64,000 nucleotides of DNA, from assembly GCF_023006325.1 (NCBI RefSeq), contig NZ_JAINDF010000002.1, positions 372,001-436,000 of the forward strand. The letters run 5' to 3'. Within the stretch, counting starts at the first letter, position 1. Each line of letters opens with the position of its first letter. Shown here piece by piece: positions 23,793 to 32,752 of the stretch. The DNA is from Kordiimonas marina (GTDB taxonomy: Bacteria; Pseudomonadota; Alphaproteobacteria; Sphingomonadales; Kordiimonadaceae). The position numbers were made by a program, and so were the translations under genes. The notes beneath the pieces were generated by a model that saw nothing but the letters and a program-made list of their open reading frames with translations, did not search any database and had not been told where the DNA came from.

Positions 23793-23957
23793 AATGGTGT
23801 CCCTGATAAAATAGTCCCCGGAGATGACCGTATAAGGTCCCCTTCCCGTATCTCAAGAATTTTCGCAATGAGGGGTGGAGAAATATCGGAGGCAATTTGC
23901 CTGCCCGCCCGGATAGGCTATCTTAAGCTGCAAGAAGCCAAGACTGGGAGGTGGAAT

Positions 23958-25247
23958 ATGGCGCTGTTGCGGATTTTGCTGGTGTGCGTGGTGTGGCTCG
24001 GCGTGGCCACGCAAGGAACGGTGGCGGACCCATTGCCGCGCGCGCGGCCGGGGGCTGAAGGGGTATCGGTCGCCAAACTTGCCGCGCTCGATGCACATTT
24101 CCAGGCCTATGTGGATAAGGGAATGCTGGCAGGTGCCACCACGCTCGTGGCCCGCCACGGCAAGGTCATCCATTTCGCTCATTATGGTATGCTGAACAAG
24201 GCTGCGGGCGTGCCGATGACGGACGATGCCATCTTCCGCATCTATTCGATGACCAAGCCGATCACCGGTGTCGCCCTGATGATGCTTTATGAAGAGGGGC
24301 GCTTCAAACTCAGCGATCCGGTTTCCAAATACCTGCCTGAGTTCGCCCATGCCCGCGTTTATAAAGCCACGGACAAGGACGGCACAGTGGAAACCGTGGC
24401 CGCCGACCGGCCGATTACTATCCTCGACCTGATGCGCCACACGGCGGGGCTGACCTACGGCGTGTTCGGCAACACGCCGGTGGATAAGCTGTACCGCGCG
24501 AACGGCGTGACCGACTTCAACCAGACGCTGGGCCAGTGGACCAAGAAGATCGCGGCCGAACCGCTTCTGTACCAGCCGGGCAAACGCTGGGTTTATTCTT
24601 TCGCAGTCGATGTGCAGGGGCGGCTCGTTGAGGTGCTTTCCGGCATGACGCTCGACCAGTTTTTCAAGAAGCGGATCTTTGAGCCCCTGGGGATGAAGGA
24701 TACCGGCTTTGCCGCCACCGGCGACCGGGCGGCGCGCCTGGCGGAGATTTACGCGGTCGACGCCAAAACACACGCGCTCGCGGCTTACCGCGGCAATCTC
24801 TATCAGGATTTCACCAAACAGCCGGTGCTGTTCTCCGGCGGGGGCGGGCTCGTCTCCACCGCGGCTGATTATTGGCGCTTCTGTCAGATGCTCCTGAACG
24901 GGGGTGAGCTGAATGGCGTACGGCTTCTGAAGCCCGCAACCGTGCGGCTGATGGCCACCAACCATCTGCCCGAAGGGCTCAAGGGCATCCACGAAGGCAA
25001 GGCGGGCCTCGGCTTCGGGCTCGACTTTGCGGTGGTGAAGGACCCGGGCAAGCAGGGGCACGGCGCGCGGAAGGGCGAATTTTTCTGGGGCGGCATGGCC
25101 AACACCATTTTCTGGATCGACCCGAAAAGCGACCTGATTGCCATCATGATGACCAACGTGTTGCCGAGCGATGTGTACCCGCTTCGGGACGATATGCGCC
25201 AATATGTCTATGACGCCCTGGAGCCGGCCACCGCGACGGCCCGCTGA
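23958..25247 (+). CDS. Exported serine hydrolase of the beta-lactamase (class C/EstB) fold
   Basis: A 429-residue protein with a signal peptide (about 1-23). The catalytic SxxK motif is SMTK in IYSMTKPITG; the Tyr motif is Y-S-F in WVYSFAVDVQG; the third motif is WGG in FWGGMANTIFWIDP, as in EstB-type esterases rather than true beta-lactamases. It probably cleaves an ester or peptide bond in the periplasm. I start at the ATG at 23958 after GGGAGG; the longer frame to 23868 has no signal peptide at its start. Ends at a perfect 19-base hairpin. Confidence 0.88.
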   Translation: MALLRILLVCVVWLGVATQGTVADPLPRARPGAEGVSVAKLAALDAHFQAYVDKGMLAGATTLVARHGKVIHFAHYGMLNKAAGVPMTDDAIFRIYSMTKPITGVALMMLYEEGRFKLSDPVSKYLPEFAHARVYKATDKDGTVETVAADRPITILDLMRHTAGLTYGVFGNTPVDKLYRANGVTDFNQTLGQWTKKIAAEPLLYQPGKRWVYSFAVDVQGRLVEVLSGMTLDQFFKKRIFEPLGMKDTGFAATGDRAARLAEIYAVDAKTHALAAYRGNLYQDFTKQPVLFSGGGGLVSTAADYWRFCQMLLNGGELNGVRLLKPATVRLMATNHLPEGLKGIHEGKAGLGFGLDFAVVKDPGKQGHGARKGEFFWGGMANTIFWIDPKSDLIAIMMTNVLPSDVYPLRDDMRQYVYDALEPATATAR

Positions 25248-25323: not shown

Positions 25324-25737
25324 TTACTTGATGTTGACGGCGATGTGCCCAGGCTTGATGCCGGCCTTGCGGGCTTCGTCATAGAGCCGAACCACCATGT
25401 CGGTGTGGGCGGCCGGGTCGGCGACGATCAGCACAGGCGCCTTGGGCCGGGCCGTGCTTTCGGCCTTGACGATGGCGCCGACCGAGAAGGGGGCGATCAG
25501 CTGGCCGTTATGGAACAGCCGGTTGCCCGCATCGATGCGGAAGCCGATCGGCTCCATGGGGGAGACCGGGCCGGTAAGCGGACGGCTGAGGTCGGGCGTG
25601 AGGCCGGTCGCGCGGACGAAACTCGCCGTTACCACAAAGAAGATCAGCATGATGAAGACGACATCCAGCATCGGGGTGAGGTCGGGGCCTTGCTTCAGGG
25701 CATGGGCCCGGGCCATACGGGGCAGGGTGCGTGTCAT
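25324..25737 (-). CDS. exbD: ExbD-type biopolymer transporter of a TonB-ExbD pair
   Basis: A 137-residue protein with one membrane helix after a short cytoplasmic N-terminus: the family core LTPMLDVVFIMLIFFVVTASFV carries the functionally essential aspartate, with the periplasmic domain behind it. ExbD works with ExbB to drive TonB with the proton gradient. It sits 9 bases after a tonB gene on the same strand and has a strong AGGAGG site. No exbB accompanies this pair, so it may borrow ExbB from the neighbouring cluster. Confidence 0.9.
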   Translation of the reverse strand: MTRTLPRMARAHALKQGPDLTPMLDVVFIMLIFFVVTASFVRATGLTPDLSRPLTGPVSPMEPIGFRIDAGNRLFHNGQLIAPFSVGAIVKAESTARPKAPVLIVADPAAHTDMVVRLYDEARKAGIKPGHIAVNIK

Positions 25738-25746
25738 GGCAGCCTC

Positions 25747-26358
25747 CTACTTGTCATCGCCGAGGGTGAAGGTCATGCGGTAGCGCACGCCGGTCGAGCG
25801 GACGGCATGGCCGTCGACCACCTTGGGCTTGTATTTGAACTTGCTGACGGCACTCAGGCTCGCGTGCTCGAAATAGCCTTTGGGCTGAGCGTCGATAATG
25901 ACCGGGTTCTCGACCTGGCCGTCGGCATTGACCGCGAATTCAACGACGGCCCAGCCTTCAATACCGCGTTCGAGCGCCCGGCGCGGATATTGCGGCTCAA
26001 CCCGGACGATGGGGATTTTCTCGCCGTCAACCATGCCAAGGTCGATCCGGTCCGTTGACTTGGGGAGACTGGGGGCGACCGGGGGGATGCCGGTAGGGAT
26101 GTGGGTCCCGGTTTCCGTACGAGGCGGGAAGTGCGTCTTGGTCTCTGGCGGTTTGACCTGTTTCGGCCTGTCGACGCGGGTGCGTTCGTGGACCGGCTTG
26201 TCGGGCTGCTGTGTTAAAACAAAATCGATCGGCACATAGGGCTTGGGTTCCTTGATGTCGATGACATTCGAGGCGACCAGCGCCTGCATCAGATAGAAAA
26301 GCCCGAAGGTCATGCCGGTCGCGGCAGCGGTGATTGGCAGTGTGCGTCCAGTAGTCAT
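25747..26358 (-). CDS. tonB: TonB-type energy transducer of the TonB-ExbD pair
   Basis: A 203-residue protein: N-terminal membrane anchor (about residues 8-30), Pro/Lys-rich spacer (about 60-95), and a C-terminal TonB domain with VEPQYPRRALERGIEGWAVV, YFEHASLSAVSKFKYKPKVV and GVRYRMTF. It links inner-membrane energy to outer-membrane receptors. It is a close paralogue of the TonB at 27973-28593, best seen in the shared RGIEG and DAQPKGYFE stretches. The ribosome site GGAGGGG is strong. A palindromic operator-like site lies 15 bases upstream of the start codon. Confidence 0.92.
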   Translation of the reverse strand: MTTGRTLPITAAATGMTFGLFYLMQALVASNVIDIKEPKPYVPIDFVLTQQPDKPVHERTRVDRPKQVKPPETKTHFPPRTETGTHIPTGIPPVAPSLPKSTDRIDLGMVDGEKIPIVRVEPQYPRRALERGIEGWAVVEFAVNADGQVENPVIIDAQPKGYFEHASLSAVSKFKYKPKVVDGHAVRSTGVRYRMTFTLGDDK

Positions 26359-26372
26359 TTAACCCCTCCATG

Positions 26373-26435
26373 TATTGTTACAACATAACAATATCACCGA
26401 ATAGGCATTATGAAAAGTGATAACGTAACAATGTA
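26373..26435 (-). promoter_or_regulatory. Operator-like palindrome and third half-site upstream of the TonB-ExbD pair
   Basis: TATTGTTA (26373-26380) and TAACAATA (26386-26393) form a perfect 8-base inverted repeat with a 5-base spacer. A third copy of TAACAAT occurs at 26426-26432 in AACGTAACAATG. The pattern TTGTTA-n5-TAACAA resembles Zur-type zinc operators in general form. The regulator is not shown by the sequence. Confidence 0.5.
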
Positions 26436-26564
26436 GATTGTGCCTATAGATAGGGACTGACGGGAGGCGAGGGACGGTCTGCCGTGACCAAGAGCCTGTC
26501 AGGCTTTAAGGGGCGTGCGGACGATGCGGGGAAAACGAATAGGTGAGGGGCTATCCCTCAAAAT

Positions 26565-26594
26565 AAAAACGGCGCCGGAAGGGCGCCGTTTTCA
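26565..26594 (-). terminator. Terminator of the TonB2-type cluster
   Basis: Stem AAAACGGCGCC (26566-26576) with GGCGCCGTTTT (26582-26592) and a 5-base loop, just after the TPR gene on the minus strand. It separates the cluster from the TonB-ExbD pair. Confidence 0.85.
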
Positions 26595-26615
26595 GTGTTT
26601 TCATGAAGCCAGCAC

Positions 26616-27968
26616 TTAGCCGGTCAGCATCTTTTCACGAGCTTCTTCCGCCTTCAGGTAGTTCTGCCACTGACGGACGGTATTCTTGTCCTTCTTGTCT
26701 TTGGCAAGTTTGGCGGCAGTGTCGAACTCCTTGTGGGCGTCCGCAAACTGCTTGAGCTCGGTATAAGCGGTGCCACGCTGCATCAGTGCAGTGAGACGCT
26801 TGTGGCCAGCTTTGGTGGACTTGTCGTTCTTCAGGCTATCAAGAACCTGACCAAACGAGTTGATCGCATCCTTATAATGGTCAAGCTGCATCTGGATCTG
26901 GCCGATCTGCATCCAGAGTTCCACATCGGACTCCAGCTTGGCAGATTCGGTCATCGGCGCAATCGCCTTGGCCCATTCGTTAGCCATCATATAGCACTGA
27001 CCCAGAAGGCGCAGGTTTTTGGCGTTTCTTTCGACCCGCTTTTCCTTGAATGCCTTCTCCATGATCCAGGCACACTTGATCGGTGCACCGCGGACGATCT
27101 GGATCTGGGCGACGTTCACCAGCTGGGCCGGCTTGTCGTCCAGGAAGCCTTGTTTATACGCGGCTTCGGTCAGAGCGTAGGACGTGGTCTCGTCCCCGAG
27201 TTCCTGGTAAACAGCGGCAAGCTGCTGCCAGTAACGGGGCTTCGGCCAGTTGATCAGCAAAGTCTCCAGCACGTCGCGTACCTTTTTGAACTCACCGAGT
27301 TCCCAGTAAGCGGACAGTGCCAGCTGGTACCATTGCTCTTTCACTTCGACGAGGTCGGTCGCTTGCGCCTGCTTGATGGCCTTATTGATATATTCAATAC
27401 AGGTCTTGAAGTCGTTACGCGTGTAATAGAGCTGCGAGATGAAGACCAAGTTGCTGACGCTGATCAGCGTCGGGTCAACCTGGCTCTGCCACTCTTTTAC
27501 GTAAGCGAGCGATTTGTCGTAGTTTTCGATGCTGTAATACAGTTGGGCCAGGCCGTAGATGATGTTGGTCTCCAGCGCAACCGGGATGCTTTCCCGATAT
27601 TGCAGGATCTTCTCATACGCGGCGATGGTACCCTTGGTATCATCTTCATCGTAGGCGATCATGGCGCGTAACTGCCACGTAATGGCGCGCTCATAATCGT
27701 TTAGGTGTTTGCGCTCAAGGACCTCACCAAGAATTTTATTGGCGGTTACATAGTCCTTGGCATCCATAGCTTCCTGCGCCTTCTGGATATGCTTGTGCGT
27801 CTCCAGGGACATTGCAGGAACCTTACGGGTTTTGGCTTGCGAGATGGCGCTCGGCTGCTTGTCTTGCGACGCGTAAGCCGCACCACCGCTGGATGCGGGC
27901 AGCATAGCGAGGACCGCTGCTGCTGCCACTGCCATCGGCAGGGATTTGATGGTTTTGATCATCTTCAT
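26616..27968 (-). CDS. Exported TPR protein of the TonB2-type cluster
   Basis: A protein of 450 residues with a signal peptide (about 1-33, ending AYA) and about 8-9 helix-turn-helix TPR-like repeats over residues 50-430, several with the typical W/L-G-Y-A/P spacing. In Vibrio TonB2 systems a TPR protein also follows tonB2; it is thought to help the system in the periplasm, by inference from cluster position. I start at the ATG at 27968, four bases past the tonB stop, with GGGAAG upstream; two earlier in-frame ATGs at 27983 and 27986 overlap tonB. Last gene of the cluster, closed by a hairpin. Confidence 0.85.
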   Translation of the reverse strand: MKMIKTIKSLPMAVAAAAVLAMLPASSGGAAYASQDKQPSAISQAKTRKVPAMSLETHKHIQKAQEAMDAKDYVTANKILGEVLERKHLNDYERAITWQLRAMIAYDEDDTKGTIAAYEKILQYRESIPVALETNIIYGLAQLYYSIENYDKSLAYVKEWQSQVDPTLISVSNLVFISQLYYTRNDFKTCIEYINKAIKQAQATDLVEVKEQWYQLALSAYWELGEFKKVRDVLETLLINWPKPRYWQQLAAVYQELGDETTSYALTEAAYKQGFLDDKPAQLVNVAQIQIVRGAPIKCAWIMEKAFKEKRVERNAKNLRLLGQCYMMANEWAKAIAPMTESAKLESDVELWMQIGQIQMQLDHYKDAINSFGQVLDSLKNDKSTKAGHKRLTALMQRGTAYTELKQFADAHKEFDTAAKLAKDKKDKNTVRQWQNYLKAEEAREKMLTG

Positions 27969-27972
27969 GACA

Positions 27973-28593
27973 TTACTTCCCATCATCCAGGTTAAAGGTG
28001 AAACGATACTTCACACCCGTAACCGCCTGCGGTTTGCCATTCACAACCTTCGGCTTGTATTTGAACTTCTCTGCAGCGCGGGTGGCTGCACGTTCAAAAT
28101 AACCCTTGGGCTGCGCGTCGAGGATGACGATGGAATCCGGCGGGACAGTCCCGTCTTCACTCACCGTCAGGGACACGATCACGTACCCTTCGATCCCCCG
28201 TTCCTGAGCCCGGCGCGGATACTGCGGCTGCACGCGAACGAGCGGCAGATAGTCACCATCCTGGCTGGGACCAAGGTCGATGGAGCCAAGGTCTACACCC
28301 GTCCCCTGATTGGCGCGGCCAATCGAGAGGTTCAGTTTATTCGGGCCTTGGACCTGGACCTTCGGGGTTTCGATCTCCGGCGGGGGTGCTTCCACCTCCG
28401 GCGGCTTCTCTACTTTCCGCTCCAGATGCTGGGGCGGCTGGTCTTTGATGTTTTGAACAACATCGATGAACCGCAGCTGCTTTTCCTCGTTAAGTTTGAC
28501 GTCATCGAATGTCACCAGGTTCTGCATGATAAAAAACAGACCAAAGGTAACTAACGTCGAGGCAACAAGTGCGGATCCGTAACGAGTAATCAT
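27973..28593 (-). CDS. tonB2: TonB-type energy transducer of the TonB2-type cluster
   Basis: A 206-residue protein: membrane anchor (about residues 10-30), a short Pro-rich spacer around 55-75 with Pro-Pro-Glu runs, and the C-terminal TonB domain with VRVQPQYPRRAQERGIEGYV, DAQPKGYFERAATRAAEKFKYKPKVV and GVKYRFTF. The spacer is short, as in TonB2 proteins. Its start codon overlaps the exbD stop by one base (TGATG), so it is translationally coupled. It is paralogous to the other TonB at 25747. Confidence 0.92.
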   Translation of the reverse strand: MITRYGSALVASTLVTFGLFFIMQNLVTFDDVKLNEEKQLRFIDVVQNIKDQPPQHLERKVEKPPEVEAPPPEIETPKVQVQGPNKLNLSIGRANQGTGVDLGSIDLGPSQDGDYLPLVRVQPQYPRRAQERGIEGYVIVSLTVSEDGTVPPDSIVILDAQPKGYFERAATRAAEKFKYKPKVVNGKPQAVTGVKYRFTFNLDDGK

Positions 28594-28994
28594 CAGATTT
28601 TCTCCGCAGCTATGGCTATTTTTTCAACGCCGGCAGCGCGCACGGCGTCGTAGACTTTCATAACCAGCCCGGCCTTCGATTTTTTGTCAGCCTGGATCGC
28701 CACCGACCCTTTCGGGTTTTCCGCATGAAGCTTTTCGATGGCCGTACGGACACCTGCAAGCTCCACCTTATGGCGGTTGATCCAAATCTCGTCATTGGGC
28801 CGAACCGCAACCAGGATACTCACCTGGCGCTGAATAACAGCTGTATGCGCTTCTGGCTCAATAACCGAGACACCGGCTTCCTTCACGAAGACCGCGGTCA
28901 CGATGAAGAAGATCAGCATGATGAACACGACATCCAGCATGGGTGTCAGGTCAATCTCTGCTTCATCACCTTGTTTTTGTGCGTGGTCTCGCAT
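28593..28994 (-). CDS. exbD: ExbD-type transporter, second copy in the cluster
   Basis: A 133-residue protein starting at the ATG at 28994, which has GGAG 6 bases upstream; a GTG at 29006 is the alternative. The family core is LTPMLDVVFIMLIFFIVTAVFV with the proton-path aspartate, then a periplasmic domain. It is the second ExbD in a row (the first is at 29061-29480); the two differ clearly in the periplasmic part, where this one lacks the Asp/Pro-rich insert. Two ExbD genes in a row also occur in other TonB2/TtpC-type clusters. Confidence 0.9.
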   Translation of the reverse strand: MRDHAQKQGDEAEIDLTPMLDVVFIMLIFFIVTAVFVKEAGVSVIEPEAHTAVIQRQVSILVAVRPNDEIWINRHKVELAGVRTAIEKLHAENPKGSVAIQADKKSKAGLVMKVYDAVRAAGVEKIAIAAEKI

Positions 28995-29060
28995 CACTTT
29001 CTCCACTGTGCCCCTATGCGGGGCATCGCCCTGAAGGGCGGGGGCTTGCCCCCACCAAGG

Positions 29061-29480
29061 TTATTTCTTGGGCGTTAAAACGATCTTGTCGCGCGGGATT
29101 CCAATATCGATAGCTGCGTCGTAAATACGAACTGACAGCCCTGTATAGGAACCCGAGGCGGCCTGAATCACGACCGGAGCCTTAGGGCGTTCGACACTTT
29201 CTTTCTTGATGATCGACTCCACCGACGAGATGTCGATGGACCGGAATTCATGGAAGATCCGGTTGTTGTCATCAATGATGAAAGCGATCGCACGCTTGTC
29301 GTCATCCGGGGGCGGGGACTGATCATTAGCTTGATTGTCCTCCGGCTTATTGATCTCAAGACCGGACTCTTTCACGAAAGTCGCGGTAACGATGAAGAAG
29401 ATGAGCATGATAAACACAACGTCGAGCATCGGCGTCAGGTTTACTTCAGCTTCTTCCGTTTCCTTTGCGAATTTACGCAT
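29061..29480 (-). CDS. exbD: ExbD-type transporter, first copy in the cluster
   Basis: A 139-residue protein with the same core as its neighbour (LTPMLDVVFIMLIFFIVTATFV), then a charged insert, ANDQSPPPDDDKRA, near residue 50-65, and the periplasmic domain ending in DIGIPRDKIVLTP. A GGAG ribosome site lies 8 bases upstream. It follows exbB by 20 bases. The insert may distinguish its partner from that of the second ExbD. Confidence 0.9.
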   Translation of the reverse strand: MRKFAKETEEAEVNLTPMLDVVFIMLIFFIVTATFVKESGLEINKPEDNQANDQSPPPDDDKRAIAFIIDDNNRIFHEFRSIDISSVESIIKKESVERPKAPVVIQAASGSYTGLSVRIYDAAIDIGIPRDKIVLTPKK

Positions 29481-29500
29481 TGGTTAAACTCCAATCCGGT

Positions 29501-30028
29501 CTAGTGGTCCGTGGTCAGGCTGTCTTCAAGCCGTTCCGATTCACGTTGAGCGCGGCGTTCGATATAGGTGCTCAGGAACAGTCCGGAGAGGGCTGCAACC
29601 ATACCGGCCATGGTCGGAATAGTTGCTTTGGATACCCCGGCTGCCATGGCGCGAGCGTTCGAAGAACCCTGCGTCGCCATAACCTGGAACACTTCAATCA
29701 TCCCCGTCACGGTACCGAGAAGGCCAACCAGCGGGCACAGTGCGACCAAGGTCTTGATCGTGCCGATGTTTTGGCTCAGCTCGGTGTTGATTTCGGAAAT
29801 CATGGCTTCACGAATTTTGTGTGCATACCAGGATTTCCGCTCCGGACGGGACTCCCACGCGTCGATGACGCGGTTCTTCTGCTTGCGGTACTCCAGCGTG
29901 AAGTACCAAAGACGCTCGACGATCAGCACCCACATGATGAAGGTGACCGCAAGGATCATGAAGAGGACGTTACCGCCCCGCTCCATGAACGCTTGGATCG
30001 CGTTGAATGCGTCATTAAGCGCCAGCAT
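29501..30028 (-). CDS. exbB: ExbB-type proton channel protein
   Basis: A 175-residue MotA/TolQ/ExbB-family protein without a periplasmic extension. A first membrane helix near residues 20-40 (LFMILAVTFIMWVLIVERLWYF) is followed by the cytoplasmic loop, then two helices: IKTLVALCPLVGLLGTVTGMIEVF with the conserved GLLGTVTGMI, and the last one around AGMVAALSGLFLSTYIERR. I start at the ATG at 30028 (MLALNDAF); the longer frame to 30163 lies inside the TtpC-like gene. The start overlaps that gene's stop by 14 bases. Confidence 0.9.
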   Translation of the reverse strand: MLALNDAFNAIQAFMERGGNVLFMILAVTFIMWVLIVERLWYFTLEYRKQKNRVIDAWESRPERKSWYAHKIREAMISEINTELSQNIGTIKTLVALCPLVGLLGTVTGMIEVFQVMATQGSSNARAMAAGVSKATIPTMAGMVAALSGLFLSTYIERRAQRESERLEDSLTTDH

Positions 30029-31379
30029 GTCCGTGCTCTTTCTCCGCATGAACGGCAATGATGCCAGCGGACTGCTCTTCAAGAACATGGATGACCGACT
30101 TGGACGTGCCAGCAACAAAGCTGTGCAGCAGCAGAGTCGGGATCGCGACGACAAGACCTTCAACCGTGGTCATCAGTGCTGCCGAAATACCGGACGCCAT
30201 CATGGACGGGTCACCGGTACCGAAGAGCGTGATAGCCTGGAAGGTTTGGATCATACCAGTAACCGTACCGAGCAGACCGAAGAGCGGTGCAACGGCGGAG
30301 ATCAGCTTGATCATGGTCAGGAAGCGTTCAAGAGCCGGCGTTTCCTTGAGGATGGCTTCGTCGAGTTTAAGCTCGAGCGTTTCCACGTCGACAGATTTGT
30401 TCGCCTGATAAACAGCCAGAACACGACCCAGCGGGTTGTTGGTGTTAGCAACATCCGTGCGCATCTGCTTCTTCACCTTGCCGTTGACAAGGGTGAGGTA
30501 GGTCCACTGAACGACAGCGAACAGAACTGCGAAGAAGCCGAGAACCAGGGTTACGTAACCAATGAAGCCACCCTGAGCCAGGTATTCCGGCAGGGTCGGT
30601 TTTTGGATTTCCAGGTTCAGGAGCTGACCACGCGACGGGTCGATGCCGAGCGGGGCAACGCCGGAGGTAGCCTTCTGGAAGTCAGCAACAGTGCCGGTGA
30701 AACGGCTGGAGGGCTGGCGCTGCAGCTCTTCAATCGTGCCATCGTCTTTCAGGATGTAGTATTTGCCGTTACCAACCACTTCGAAGTCACCAACGCGGGT
30801 CAGTTTAACGGATTCCATGTTGCCCTCTTTGGTGCGGACTTCATGGTTGAAAGTAACAACCTGGCCAGAACCGATCATTTCGGTGATCATCTGGGTCGGC
30901 CAAGCGCGGATTTCGTCAATGGTCGGCAGTTCGCCGGAGTCGGATGCTTTAGCAACGAGAGTATCGATGCCTTTCATGCGGTCCGGGGTGTCGACGGTAA
31001 CGTAGGAGCTCTTGATGGTTGCTTTGGCGTCGCCTGCAGCCTGCTGGAGAACACCGAACAGCTCTTGCAGCTGACCAAGACGGTCACGCTGTACGTCAAG
31101 CTGGCGGGTGATTTCAGCTTCGTTGGCACGACGGGTGCCTTCAAGACGGGTCGATTCGCGCTCAAGACGGGCTTCGGTCTGATGCTCTTCTTCAAGCATC
31201 TTGGCCTGCTCGGACTTGCGCTTCAGGAACTCAGCTTCGCGAGCTTTGTGCTCAGCTGATTCGGAAACACGGCCTTCGCGAACCTTCATCAGGAGCGAGT
31301 TGAGGTCTGCAGACTGGGCGTGGGCCATGGTGGACGCGCCGAGAATCAGAACAGCAGCGGAGGTAAGGATCTTTTTCAT
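30015..31379 (-). CDS. ttpC: TtpC-like ExbB/TolQ-family protein with large periplasmic domain
   Basis: A 454-residue protein. A signal peptide (about 1-21) and a long coiled-coil-rich periplasmic domain (about 25-250, with many Glu/Arg heptads around 40-100) precede a MotA/TolQ/ExbB domain with three membrane helices, the last carrying SAVAPLFGLLGTVTGMIQTF. This architecture and its position right before exbB match TtpC of Vibrio TonB2 systems, which is needed for TonB2-dependent iron uptake there. The GGAGAAATAAT site sits directly before the start, one base after the DUF3450 stop. Confidence 0.88.
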   Translation of the reverse strand: MKKILTSAAVLILGASTMAHAQSADLNSLLMKVREGRVSESAEHKAREAEFLKRKSEQAKMLEEEHQTEARLERESTRLEGTRRANEAEITRQLDVQRDRLGQLQELFGVLQQAAGDAKATIKSSYVTVDTPDRMKGIDTLVAKASDSGELPTIDEIRAWPTQMITEMIGSGQVVTFNHEVRTKEGNMESVKLTRVGDFEVVGNGKYYILKDDGTIEELQRQPSSRFTGTVADFQKATSGVAPLGIDPSRGQLLNLEIQKPTLPEYLAQGGFIGYVTLVLGFFAVLFAVVQWTYLTLVNGKVKKQMRTDVANTNNPLGRVLAVYQANKSVDVETLELKLDEAILKETPALERFLTMIKLISAVAPLFGLLGTVTGMIQTFQAITLFGTGDPSMMASGISAALMTTVEGLVVAIPTLLLHSFVAGTSKSVIHVLEEQSAGIIAVHAEKEHGHAGA

Positions 31380-31380
31380 A

Positions 31381-32154
31381 TTATTTCTCCTTCGGCGCTT
31401 CGATCGGCAAGACCAGGACGTTCAGCGGAACCTGGTGACGGGCCATTTTGATCAGCTGCTTAACCGAGGTAGCGAACTCGTCTTTGCGTTCCCAGCTCTT
31501 GGTGTCGCGGTTCCAGACGTCAGTCTCTTTGCCGTCTTTGGTCTGGTAGTAGAAACCAACGCGACCGATACGAACGAAGTTGACCGAACGGCCATCATCA
31601 ATCGTGCCCTCGTAGGTGTTAAGCGTGCGGCCGTAGGAGACCTCAGCTTTGTATGCGTCAAGAACAACGCGGAAGCGCTCAGGGTCGCTTACGTTCGGGT
31701 TGTCCATTGCCTCTTTCAGCTTTTCGATACGGTCTTCCCGTTCTTTAAGCTGGAAGGGGATGTCCGCATGGACGAAGTCGTCGAGGTTGGCGATCATCTC
31801 AAGCATCAGAGGTGTAATCTGGCGCTTGATTTCGTCAATCCGACCGATCGAGTTTTTGATCTTCTCGATCTCTTCTTCCTGCTTTTTGATCACGCGGTTC
31901 TGCTGAGCGTTGTACGCGCGCAGACCTGCATTGGTCTTCAGGACTCCTTTGTATTCGGCAAACAGTTTAGCGGTTGCGTCGGCAACAGAGTCGATTTTCT
32001 TCTGCGACGCTTGCGCGATTTTGTTGGCCTGGTTCACCTCGTCGACGATCGACTTCAGGCGAGCATCCTGTGCGTTAGCAGCAGTTGCACCCAGAAGGAT
32101 CGAGGCAACCGCGGCCGTCGAGACAGCTATCCGTTTCACTTTAGCCTTATCCAT
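31381..32154 (-). CDS. DUF3450-family periplasmic coiled-coil protein
   Basis: A 257-residue protein with a signal peptide (about 1-28, ending ANAQ). A long coiled coil spans about 30-110 and runs on around 140, and a small beta-rich domain from about 170 ends in VLVLPI. DUF3450 proteins often precede TtpC-like and ExbB genes, so it likely belongs to the complex, perhaps as a periplasmic scaffold; that is inference. First gene of the cluster. A leader with a small hairpin (about 32185-32210) lies in front of it. Confidence 0.85.
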   Translation of the reverse strand: MDKAKVKRIAVSTAAVASILLGATAANAQDARLKSIVDEVNQANKIAQASQKKIDSVADATAKLFAEYKGVLKTNAGLRAYNAQQNRVIKKQEEEIEKIKNSIGRIDEIKRQITPLMLEMIANLDDFVHADIPFQLKEREDRIEKLKEAMDNPNVSDPERFRVVLDAYKAEVSYGRTLNTYEGTIDDGRSVNFVRIGRVGFYYQTKDGKETDVWNRDTKSWERKDEFATSVKQLIKMARHQVPLNVLVLPIEAPKEK

Positions 32155-32752
32155 TTTCTGCCCACATGGGTTTTAACAAAGCTACAGCCTGACCCTTCAG
32201 GAAGGGGCTGACTGCAGCGGATTAAACCTTGCAAAGATGTGGTGCCGTATCTGGCTCCAAACCCTTACCCTTTTTAAAATTGGGAGCAAGCCGACGTCAA
32301 ATCATGGACCGAACAACAAGTTGCCCGGTTGATATGCGTCGTATCAGAAGGCTTTCCCGTACCTCTCCCAATTGTGCCGACCGCCTCACGGATTTGCTCC
32401 GCTTATGCTGCCTCCTTTATTCACCCCGTATGAGGTGCCAGGAGATCTAGTATTATGTCCTCTCCAACCGCGATGGGTCGGGGGGAGGGTTGAGACGGGC
32501 GGTCCGGCTCGGGGCCTATCATCCAAGAATCTTCTACGATTCCAAGCAAAAATTTTACTTTTCGTGTTTCAGCCCCTCTCCCAACATAATTTTAACACTT
32601 AAACCCGGGTCCGTTTCCGGCGGATGGGTATGTGATAATGTAACTGAGCCATTGAAGAGTCAATGACTTACCCCCGACTGATCGCCGATGACGCGTAAGT
32701 TTAGACCGGGAAGCGGGAAAAGACCGCATGCTGTAACCTTGGTTTACTCTGA
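32155..32752. other. 598-base non-coding region upstream of the TonB2-type cluster
   Basis: It must hold the cluster's promoter and 5' leader. A hairpin CAGCC...GGCTG (about 32185-32210) lies 31 bases before the DUF3450 start. I see no open frame with coding character and no recognisable RNA gene. Confidence 0.5.

Follow-up and report, generated by a model that had tools for sequence, protein, structure and literature searches.

We analyzed a 64,000-nucleotide stretch of the Kordiimonas marina genome (contig NZ_JAINDF010000002.1, positions 372,001 to 436,000; hereafter, the window), which carries nine genes for a TonB energy-transducing system built around an ExbB-like protein of the TtpC type. 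All nine open reading frames are on the minus strand, where an earlier note made from the sequence had placed them, and their families were matched with strong scores (Table 1; E values for the three ExbDs are 6e-20, 1e-27 and 1e-17).

Gene content of the locus

Seven of the genes, coding for a DUF3450 protein (TtpB), a TtpC-like protein, ExbB, ExbD1, ExbD2, TonB-A and a tetratricopeptide repeat (TPR) protein (TtpD), follow one another in that order and overlap or are closely spaced, with a 14-bp overlap between the TPR and TonB-A genes; the probable start of the ExbB gene, ATG 30028, lies within the 3' end of the TtpC gene. Directly 3' of the TPR gene stands a GC-rich hairpin with a T-tract, and an equivalent hairpin occupies the same place in the relatives shown; the automatic terminator scan reported this hairpin on the opposite strand only. 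A gap of 258 bp with promoter-like sequence separates this core operon from the remaining two genes, coding for TonB-B and ExbD3. A single operon for all nine genes is ruled out by the terminator and the separate promoter, and on these sequence signals the TonB-B/ExbD3 pair is a transcription unit of its own.

Table 1. Features of the TonB locus, in window positions (aa, amino acids; TM, transmembrane)
Feature	Position	Strand	Remarks
Conserved, probably structured leader	32152..32389 (core 32278-32374)	-	upstream of core operon; outside zinc control
ttpB-like gene, DUF3450 protein, 257 aa	31381..32154	-	first core-operon gene; Pfam PF11932, E 3.4e-74
ttpC-like gene, 454 aa	30015..31379	-	periplasmic domain plus ExbB/TolQ-type channel half; PF01618, E 4e-29
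ExbB, about 175 aa	29501..30028	-	PF01618, E 9e-25
ExbD1, 139 aa	29061..29480	-	ancestor type of ExbD3; PF02472; trees
ExbD2, 137 aa	28593..29006	-	PF02472; trees
TonB-A, 206 aa	27973..28593	-	TM helix, Pro-rich linker, C-terminal domain; PF03544, E 1.6e-18; alignment
ttpD-like gene, TPR protein, 456 aa	26616..27986	-	last core-operon gene; TPR families; order as Vibrio ttpD
Rho-independent terminator	26560..26592	-	AAAACGGCGCC-CTTCC-GGCGCCGTTTT, then TATTTT; closes core operon; from sequence
Zur-like box 1	26417..26429	-	GTTACGTTATCAC, one mismatch to GTTA-N5-TAAC; just upstream of -35
Promoter-like sequence between boxes	26388..26416	-	-35 TTTTCA, 17-bp spacer, -10 TATTGT; inspection of sequence and relatives
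Zur-like box 2	26377..26389	-	GTTATGTTGTAAC, exact GTTA-N5-TAAC, within palindrome TATTGTTATGTTGTAACAATA; sequence and relatives
TonB-B, 203 aa	25747..26358	-	paralogue of TonB-A; PF03544, E 1.9e-16; tree; alignment
ExbD3, 137 aa	25324..25737	-	fast-evolving ExbD1 paralogue, TM helix and TM Asp conserved; PF02472, E 1.3e-17

The core operon is of the known Vibrio TonB2 type. In Vibrio vulnificus that operon reads ttpB2-ttpC2-exbB2-exbD2-tonB2-ttpD2, where ttpB codes for a DUF3450 protein and ttpD for a TPR protein (PMC6957404), and the same six components stand here in the same order within one operon, with the DUF3450 protein first and the TPR protein last. The TtpC-like protein also has the expected build: an ExbB half at residues 319-434 follows a long N-terminal coiled-coil/beta periplasmic domain. 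The earlier note's reading of the core as a full relative of the Vibrio machinery is thus upheld by gene order and family matches. On two other points it is not supported: the roles of the DUF3450 and TPR proteins, which it wrongly took to be undescribed, are known in part, since both were shown in 2019 to be required (as TtpB2 and TtpD2) for TonB2-dependent iron uptake in V. vulnificus (PMC6957404), and the cluster is not unusual outside Vibrio, since our TtpC-based scan found the same order across Gammaproteobacteria, Myxococcota and Alphaproteobacteria. The locus differs from the Vibrio type in having two old ExbD types in the core operon instead of one, for which reason we call it a variant of that system, and in the added TonB-ExbD unit with its own promoter; for Vibrio, control by iron (Fur) has been described (PMC6957404). 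Conservation of the core order in dozens of other genomes shows that it is not due to chance. Our DUF3450 survey of 118 relatives gave a match in 77, 74 of them above the family cut-off, and among the fetched regions the core was found in essentially all members of the window's own family of loci (f1).

A single TonB-type motor

The genome that we surveyed (3.68 Mb, 100% complete) has six matches to the MotA/ExbB family, all of which can be accounted for: TtpC and ExbB of the cluster, TolQ in tolQRA, a MotA-like protein beside a FliH-like gene, and two weaker MotA-like proteins. Only two of these, the TtpC and ExbB of the core cluster, are TonB-type ExbB proteins. The earlier note had described the second pair as lacking an ExbB, and the genome-wide check agrees, finding none of TonB type elsewhere; the strong matches on contig C20, considered as a motor for TonB-B/ExbD3, are TolQ and the MotA-like protein beside the FliH-like gene. 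The ExbD family has four members genome-wide, three at the locus and TolR. There are ten matches to TonB_C, among which only TonB-A and TonB-B combine a TM helix, a linker and a C-terminal domain; the other eight were rejected as further outputs, being short, apparently secreted proteins without a TM helix and Pro-rich linker. Receptor plug domains number 35. As judged from its gene content, this is a genome with one motor, two TonBs and about 35 receptors.

Of the relatives, 11 were checked, and an extra ExbB turned up in one of them (G012), located elsewhere in the genome directly beside two extra ExbDs. Two close species carry two further ExbD genes away from the locus: in G012 these lie at C1:91359-92619, directly after the extra ExbB, and in G016 at C21:456866-457611; of these two, the check for ExbB covered G012.

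Origin and divergence of the second pair

The careful tree places the f1 ExbD3 proteins in one clade (support 99/97) that is sister to the f1 ExbD1 proteins (100/99), and TonB-B falls beside the f1 TonB-A proteins. An origin of ExbD3 as a copy of ExbD2 is rejected by the approximately unbiased (AU) test (p 0.0002). Descent of ExbD3 and TonB-B from the core ExbD1 and TonB-A by duplication is therefore supported by the trees. The AU test also rejects one common origin of all downstream ExbDs: the grouping of f1 ExbD3 with the downstream ExbDs of a second family of loci, f8, has p 0.004, from which we conclude that the f8 proteins arose separately. In f8 and in several gammaproteobacterial loci, the second TonBs likewise group with their own core TonBs (the f8 second TonB lies within f8, support 98), which indicates that extra TonBs have been gained in tandem beside a TtpC-type motor repeatedly. 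In four loci from gammaproteobacterial metagenome-assembled genomes (L053, L092, L100 and L101), two to four TonB-like genes follow one TtpC motor, some of the frames being 501-611 aa long.

The second TonB is present in 23 of the 25 complete f1 loci and is joined by ExbD3 in 14; ExbD3 is missing from nine of the 23 relatives that have a second TonB. Besides the two core ExbDs, seven genomes without ExbD3 have genome-wide no more than one further member of the ExbD family (TolR-like by position), so that TonB-B must there run on the core motor and its ExbDs. The genes that have been duplicated beside the core belong to the output only (TonB, ExbD and, in three species, the TPR protein as well), and in none of the fetched loci does the pair come with a further gene for ExbB, TtpC or DUF3450. 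In L103, L109 and L111, the additional TPR (TtpD-like) gene adjoins TonB-B/ExbD3; that is, the whole output side can be doubled.

The membrane and periplasmic parts of these proteins have diverged to very different extents. Compared with ExbD1 of the same genome, ExbD3 has a TM helix that is 81% identical and a periplasmic part that is 30% identical; between species, the corresponding values are 79% and 30% for ExbD3 and 93% and 75% for ExbD1. The TM Asp is invariant in all 65 ExbDs compared. TonB-B and TonB-A are 59% identical in the C-terminal domain, 27% in the linker and 43% in the TM helix. A pattern of this kind is expected when the membrane portion has to fit into one common ExbB channel and the periplasmic portion can adapt freely; alternatively, the periplasmic portion may be weakly constrained.

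Separate control of the second pair

The separate control of the second pair escaped the earlier note: the pair has its own promoter, with Zur-like boxes around it (Table 1). Missed by our consensus promoter scan, this promoter has a counterpart in the relatives (TTTACA-N17-TATTGT) flanked by a conserved double palindrome, and the boxes there are usually spaced about 40 bp apart around the promoter. An exact GTTA-N5-TAAC lies upstream of the second TonB in 18 of 23 f1 loci, against 0.09 in shuffles, and in 15/15 complete loci of the genus, and such sites upstream of second TonBs number 27 in all, against 0.08 in shuffled sequences; the genomes that bear the box are related, and the counts are hence not independent. 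The half-sites are kept across loci and the five central bases vary. The core operon is preceded by an exact box in none of 28 cases. In f8, too, the promoters of the second TonBs carry a Zur-like box, AATGATATAACATAACATT or a similar sequence.

Many proteobacteria, Caulobacter among them, have GTTA-N5-TAAC as their Zur motif, and Caulobacter sites (for example GATGTTATATCATAACAAT) match it fully (PMC4176598). In relatives, the 15-mer box also precedes zur itself (L219), a znuGHI-like ATP-binding cassette (ABC) ATPase with an ABC-2 permease (L211), and TonB-dependent receptors (L214, L216 and L223). The K. marina genome has two FUR-family genes, one of them a Zur homologue by its top NCBIfam match (NF008646, Zur, E 6e-42, 143 bits). 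From the motif and this homologue we infer that Zur is the protein that would bind the boxes and that TonB-B and ExbD3 would respond to zinc. With the second pair under different control, the cell probably uses its two outputs under different conditions. In the window's own genome, a small secreted protein in L186 (5212-5949, G000:C20) is preceded by a Zur-like site with one mismatch, TTAATTGTTACTTTATATCACTTCT, and is a possible second member of the regulon.

Proposed mechanism and alternatives

We propose that the locus codes for a single motor and an output cassette that is exchangeable and controlled by zinc, a mechanism that we regard, taken as a whole, as moderately probable on the sequence evidence. 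ExbB and the ExbB-like subunit TtpC would form the proton channel, with ExbD1 and ExbD2 sitting inside it, and channels containing these two ExbDs would drive the core output, TonB-A together with the TPR protein TtpD. When zinc is plentiful, Zur would keep the TonB-B/ExbD3 cassette off through the two operator boxes that cover its promoter; when zinc is scarce, Zur would leave the boxes, and TonB-B and ExbD3 would be made. They would then dock into part of the same ExbB/TtpC channels by their conserved membrane helices, ExbD3 most likely taking the position of ExbD1 beside ExbD2, and would drive outer-membrane receptors used in zinc starvation. The earlier note had suggested that one motor is shared between two TonB outputs. 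The genomic side of this suggestion holds: the pair has no ExbB in the genome and descends from ExbD1 and TonB-A, so that one motor with two TonB outputs is the simplest reading. The physical sharing of the motor, like the replacement of ExbD1 and the choice of receptors, is what we infer from this pattern.

Several observations weigh against the mechanism. Its zinc component has its main weakness in the window's own genome, where the 15-mer TGTTAYNNNRTAACA is unique to the TonB-B promoter, no exact box was found at a znu or receptor gene, and matches with one mismatch number four against eight in the control, with no excess (these genome-wide counts come from pattern searches); the Zur regulon would thus be very small or degenerate. 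The Zur homologue scores below the NCBIfam cut-off (143 against 167 bits), five of the 23 second TonBs have no exact box (L119, L121, L124, L125 and L128), and many other boxes in relatives precede unrelated genes without a zinc link. As to the receptors, no cognate receptor gene lies beside TonB-B/ExbD3, whose neighbors are a serine hydrolase gene and other non-receptor genes; the closest Plug match on the contig is 38 kb away (G000:C18:436008). Finally, ExbD3 and TonB-B evolve fast, which could mean weak constraint.

How do these points bear on other explanations? The motor may be shared in a different geometry, with an ExbD3 homodimer and TonB-B forming a separate pool of ExbB complexes instead of ExbD3 replacing ExbD1 beside ExbD2. 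The stoichiometry ExbB5-ExbD2, established for E. coli and Serratia, permits homodimers, and the TM helix and Asp of ExbD3 are conserved; however, the pairing of ExbD1 with ExbD2 is old and has been strictly maintained in the lineage, so heterodimers look normal, and ExbD3 descends from ExbD1 only. We therefore consider a homodimer unlikely. Another alternative is that TonB-B/ExbD3 are energized not by TtpC/ExbB but by TolQ of the Tol-Pal system, which is present in the genome; in E. coli, TolQ/TolR can partly stand in for ExbB/ExbD and vice versa. The pair nevertheless stays beside the TtpC motor in the family, and its TM helices match those of its recent sources, ExbD1 (81%) and TonB-A, which makes a role for TolQ very unlikely. 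We give just as little credence to the idea that TonB-B/ExbD3 are degenerating leftovers of a tandem duplication with little function. Long branches, the periplasmic identity of about 30% within ExbD3 and the absence of ExbD3 from several species would fit such decay, but the frames are open, the TM helix and its Asp are conserved, the double operator and promoter are conserved, and the second TonB is kept in 23/25 complete family loci.

The remaining alternative leaves the shared motor in place and concerns the switch alone: the boxes might be bound by a regulator other than Zur, and the second output turned on by another signal. It would account for the single exact box in the K. marina genome and for the several box-bearing genes of relatives that have no evident zinc link, but the motif is the published Zur motif (PMC4176598), and in relatives it precedes zur, the znuGHI-like transporter and receptors. 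A different regulator thus appears rather improbable, and Zur remains our preferred candidate.

Carried beyond this genome, the mechanism would mean that a TonB and an ExbD, in some species together with a second TtpD, are freed by Zur under zinc starvation, take the place of the ordinary ExbD1 and TonB in the same channels and re-aim the motor at other receptors, an arrangement that would have evolved at least twice by duplication of output and not of motor parts. We put this broader statement forward tentatively, as somewhat short of probable. What is new about the locus is that a cassette of output genes only is under a Zur-like control of its own: in the literature searched, we found precedents for each half, the shared motor and the zinc-controlled output, and none for their combination.

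The general question behind this work is how the energy from a single TonB-type motor is divided among a cell's 35 TonB receptors. Loci of this type provide a natural example: their output parts (TonB, ExbD and sometimes TtpD) have been duplicated, placed under separate and apparently zinc-dependent control, and are diverging, while the motor parts have stayed single. They would allow one to ask cleanly, by genetics, whether one ExbD subunit can be exchanged for another and whether ExbD decides which TonB is driven.

Comparison with known systems

An ExbB-less output set is also known in the TonB1 cluster of Teredinibacter turnerae (tonB1a-tonB1b-exbD1), which provides TonB and ExbD in a cell that also has TtpC-type TonB2 and TonB3 clusters, and whose tonB1b is functional and redundant with tonB2; unlike the pair described here, it lies apart from TonB2, has no reported zinc control, and includes a TonB with extra TM helices (PMC10734418). 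HasB of Serratia marcescens is likewise a TonB paralogue that has no motor and uses the common ExbB-ExbD, but it is tied to its own receptor, HasR, and to haem, has no ExbD of its own, and works with a classical three-part motor (PMC9008036). TonB-B/ExbD3 resemble HasB in having no ExbB of their own and differ from it in having no linked cognate receptor gene. Zinc control of a Ton system is known from Acinetobacter baumannii, where TonB1-ExbB1-ExbD1 has a Zur box in its promoter and is induced by zinc chelation; that system, however, is a complete set with its own ExbB and not an output grafted on a TtpC-type motor (PMC3516566). The tonB1-exbB1-exbD1-exbD2 operon of Sphingobium SYK-6 and Xanthomonas shares with our locus two ExbDs per Ton operon and extra TonBs that outnumber the ExbBs, but no DUF3450, TtpC or TPR partner has been reported for it, nor a TonB-ExbD side unit (PMC8599685).

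DUF3450, the leader and neighboring genes

The DUF3450 protein is predicted to consist of a 102-residue helix and a small beta domain (AlphaFold model, pLDDT, the predicted local distance difference test score, 85). The N-terminal half of TtpC gives a weak match to the DUF3450 model in some genomes, and hhalign gives a collinear alignment of 209 columns between them (E 7e-5, probability 63%), while the channel half of TtpC gives nothing against DUF3450. In the AlphaFold models of TtpB and of the periplasmic half of TtpC, the elements follow one another in the same way: first a helix of about 100 residues, then two short helices, then five strands and finally one helix. These results suggest a common origin for DUF3450 and the N-terminal half of TtpC, and on the predicted models TtpB may be a stand-alone protein related to TtpC's periplasmic half, against which it would pack. 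DUF3450 was noted already in 2025 as an N-terminal domain of ExbB-like proteins (PMC12505986), and the shared predicted layout gives TtpB a structural hint. Among solved structures, we found no relative of DUF3450 by profile except coiled-coil noise, and none by fold at E ≤ 0.001.

Within the genus, the core-operon leader is non-coding and strongly conserved: a stem (CAATTGGGAG/CTCCCAATT), the motif GAGGTACGGGAAA and a hairpin are followed by the blocks AGGGTAAAGG and ATCTTTGCAAGGTTTAATC. The hairpin varies in sequence, yet it forms in 14/14 sequences folded singly. Covariation support from RNAalifold is modest (three pairs with double changes), because the sequence alignment fails to align the variable hairpin. 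Rfam has no family for the leader, and all its matches in the region are far below the gathering scores and were taken as chance. The leader is a candidate regulatory RNA for the TonB2-type operon.

A gene for a beta-lactamase-type serine hydrolase (23868-25247, plus strand) is a conserved neighbor, convergent with ExbD3 in the window and in L022 and L025. In the nearest relative, an IS1595-like transposase gene (L022 11081-11995, equivalent to L102) lies between the TPR gene and TonB-B/ExbD3, and both units are intact.

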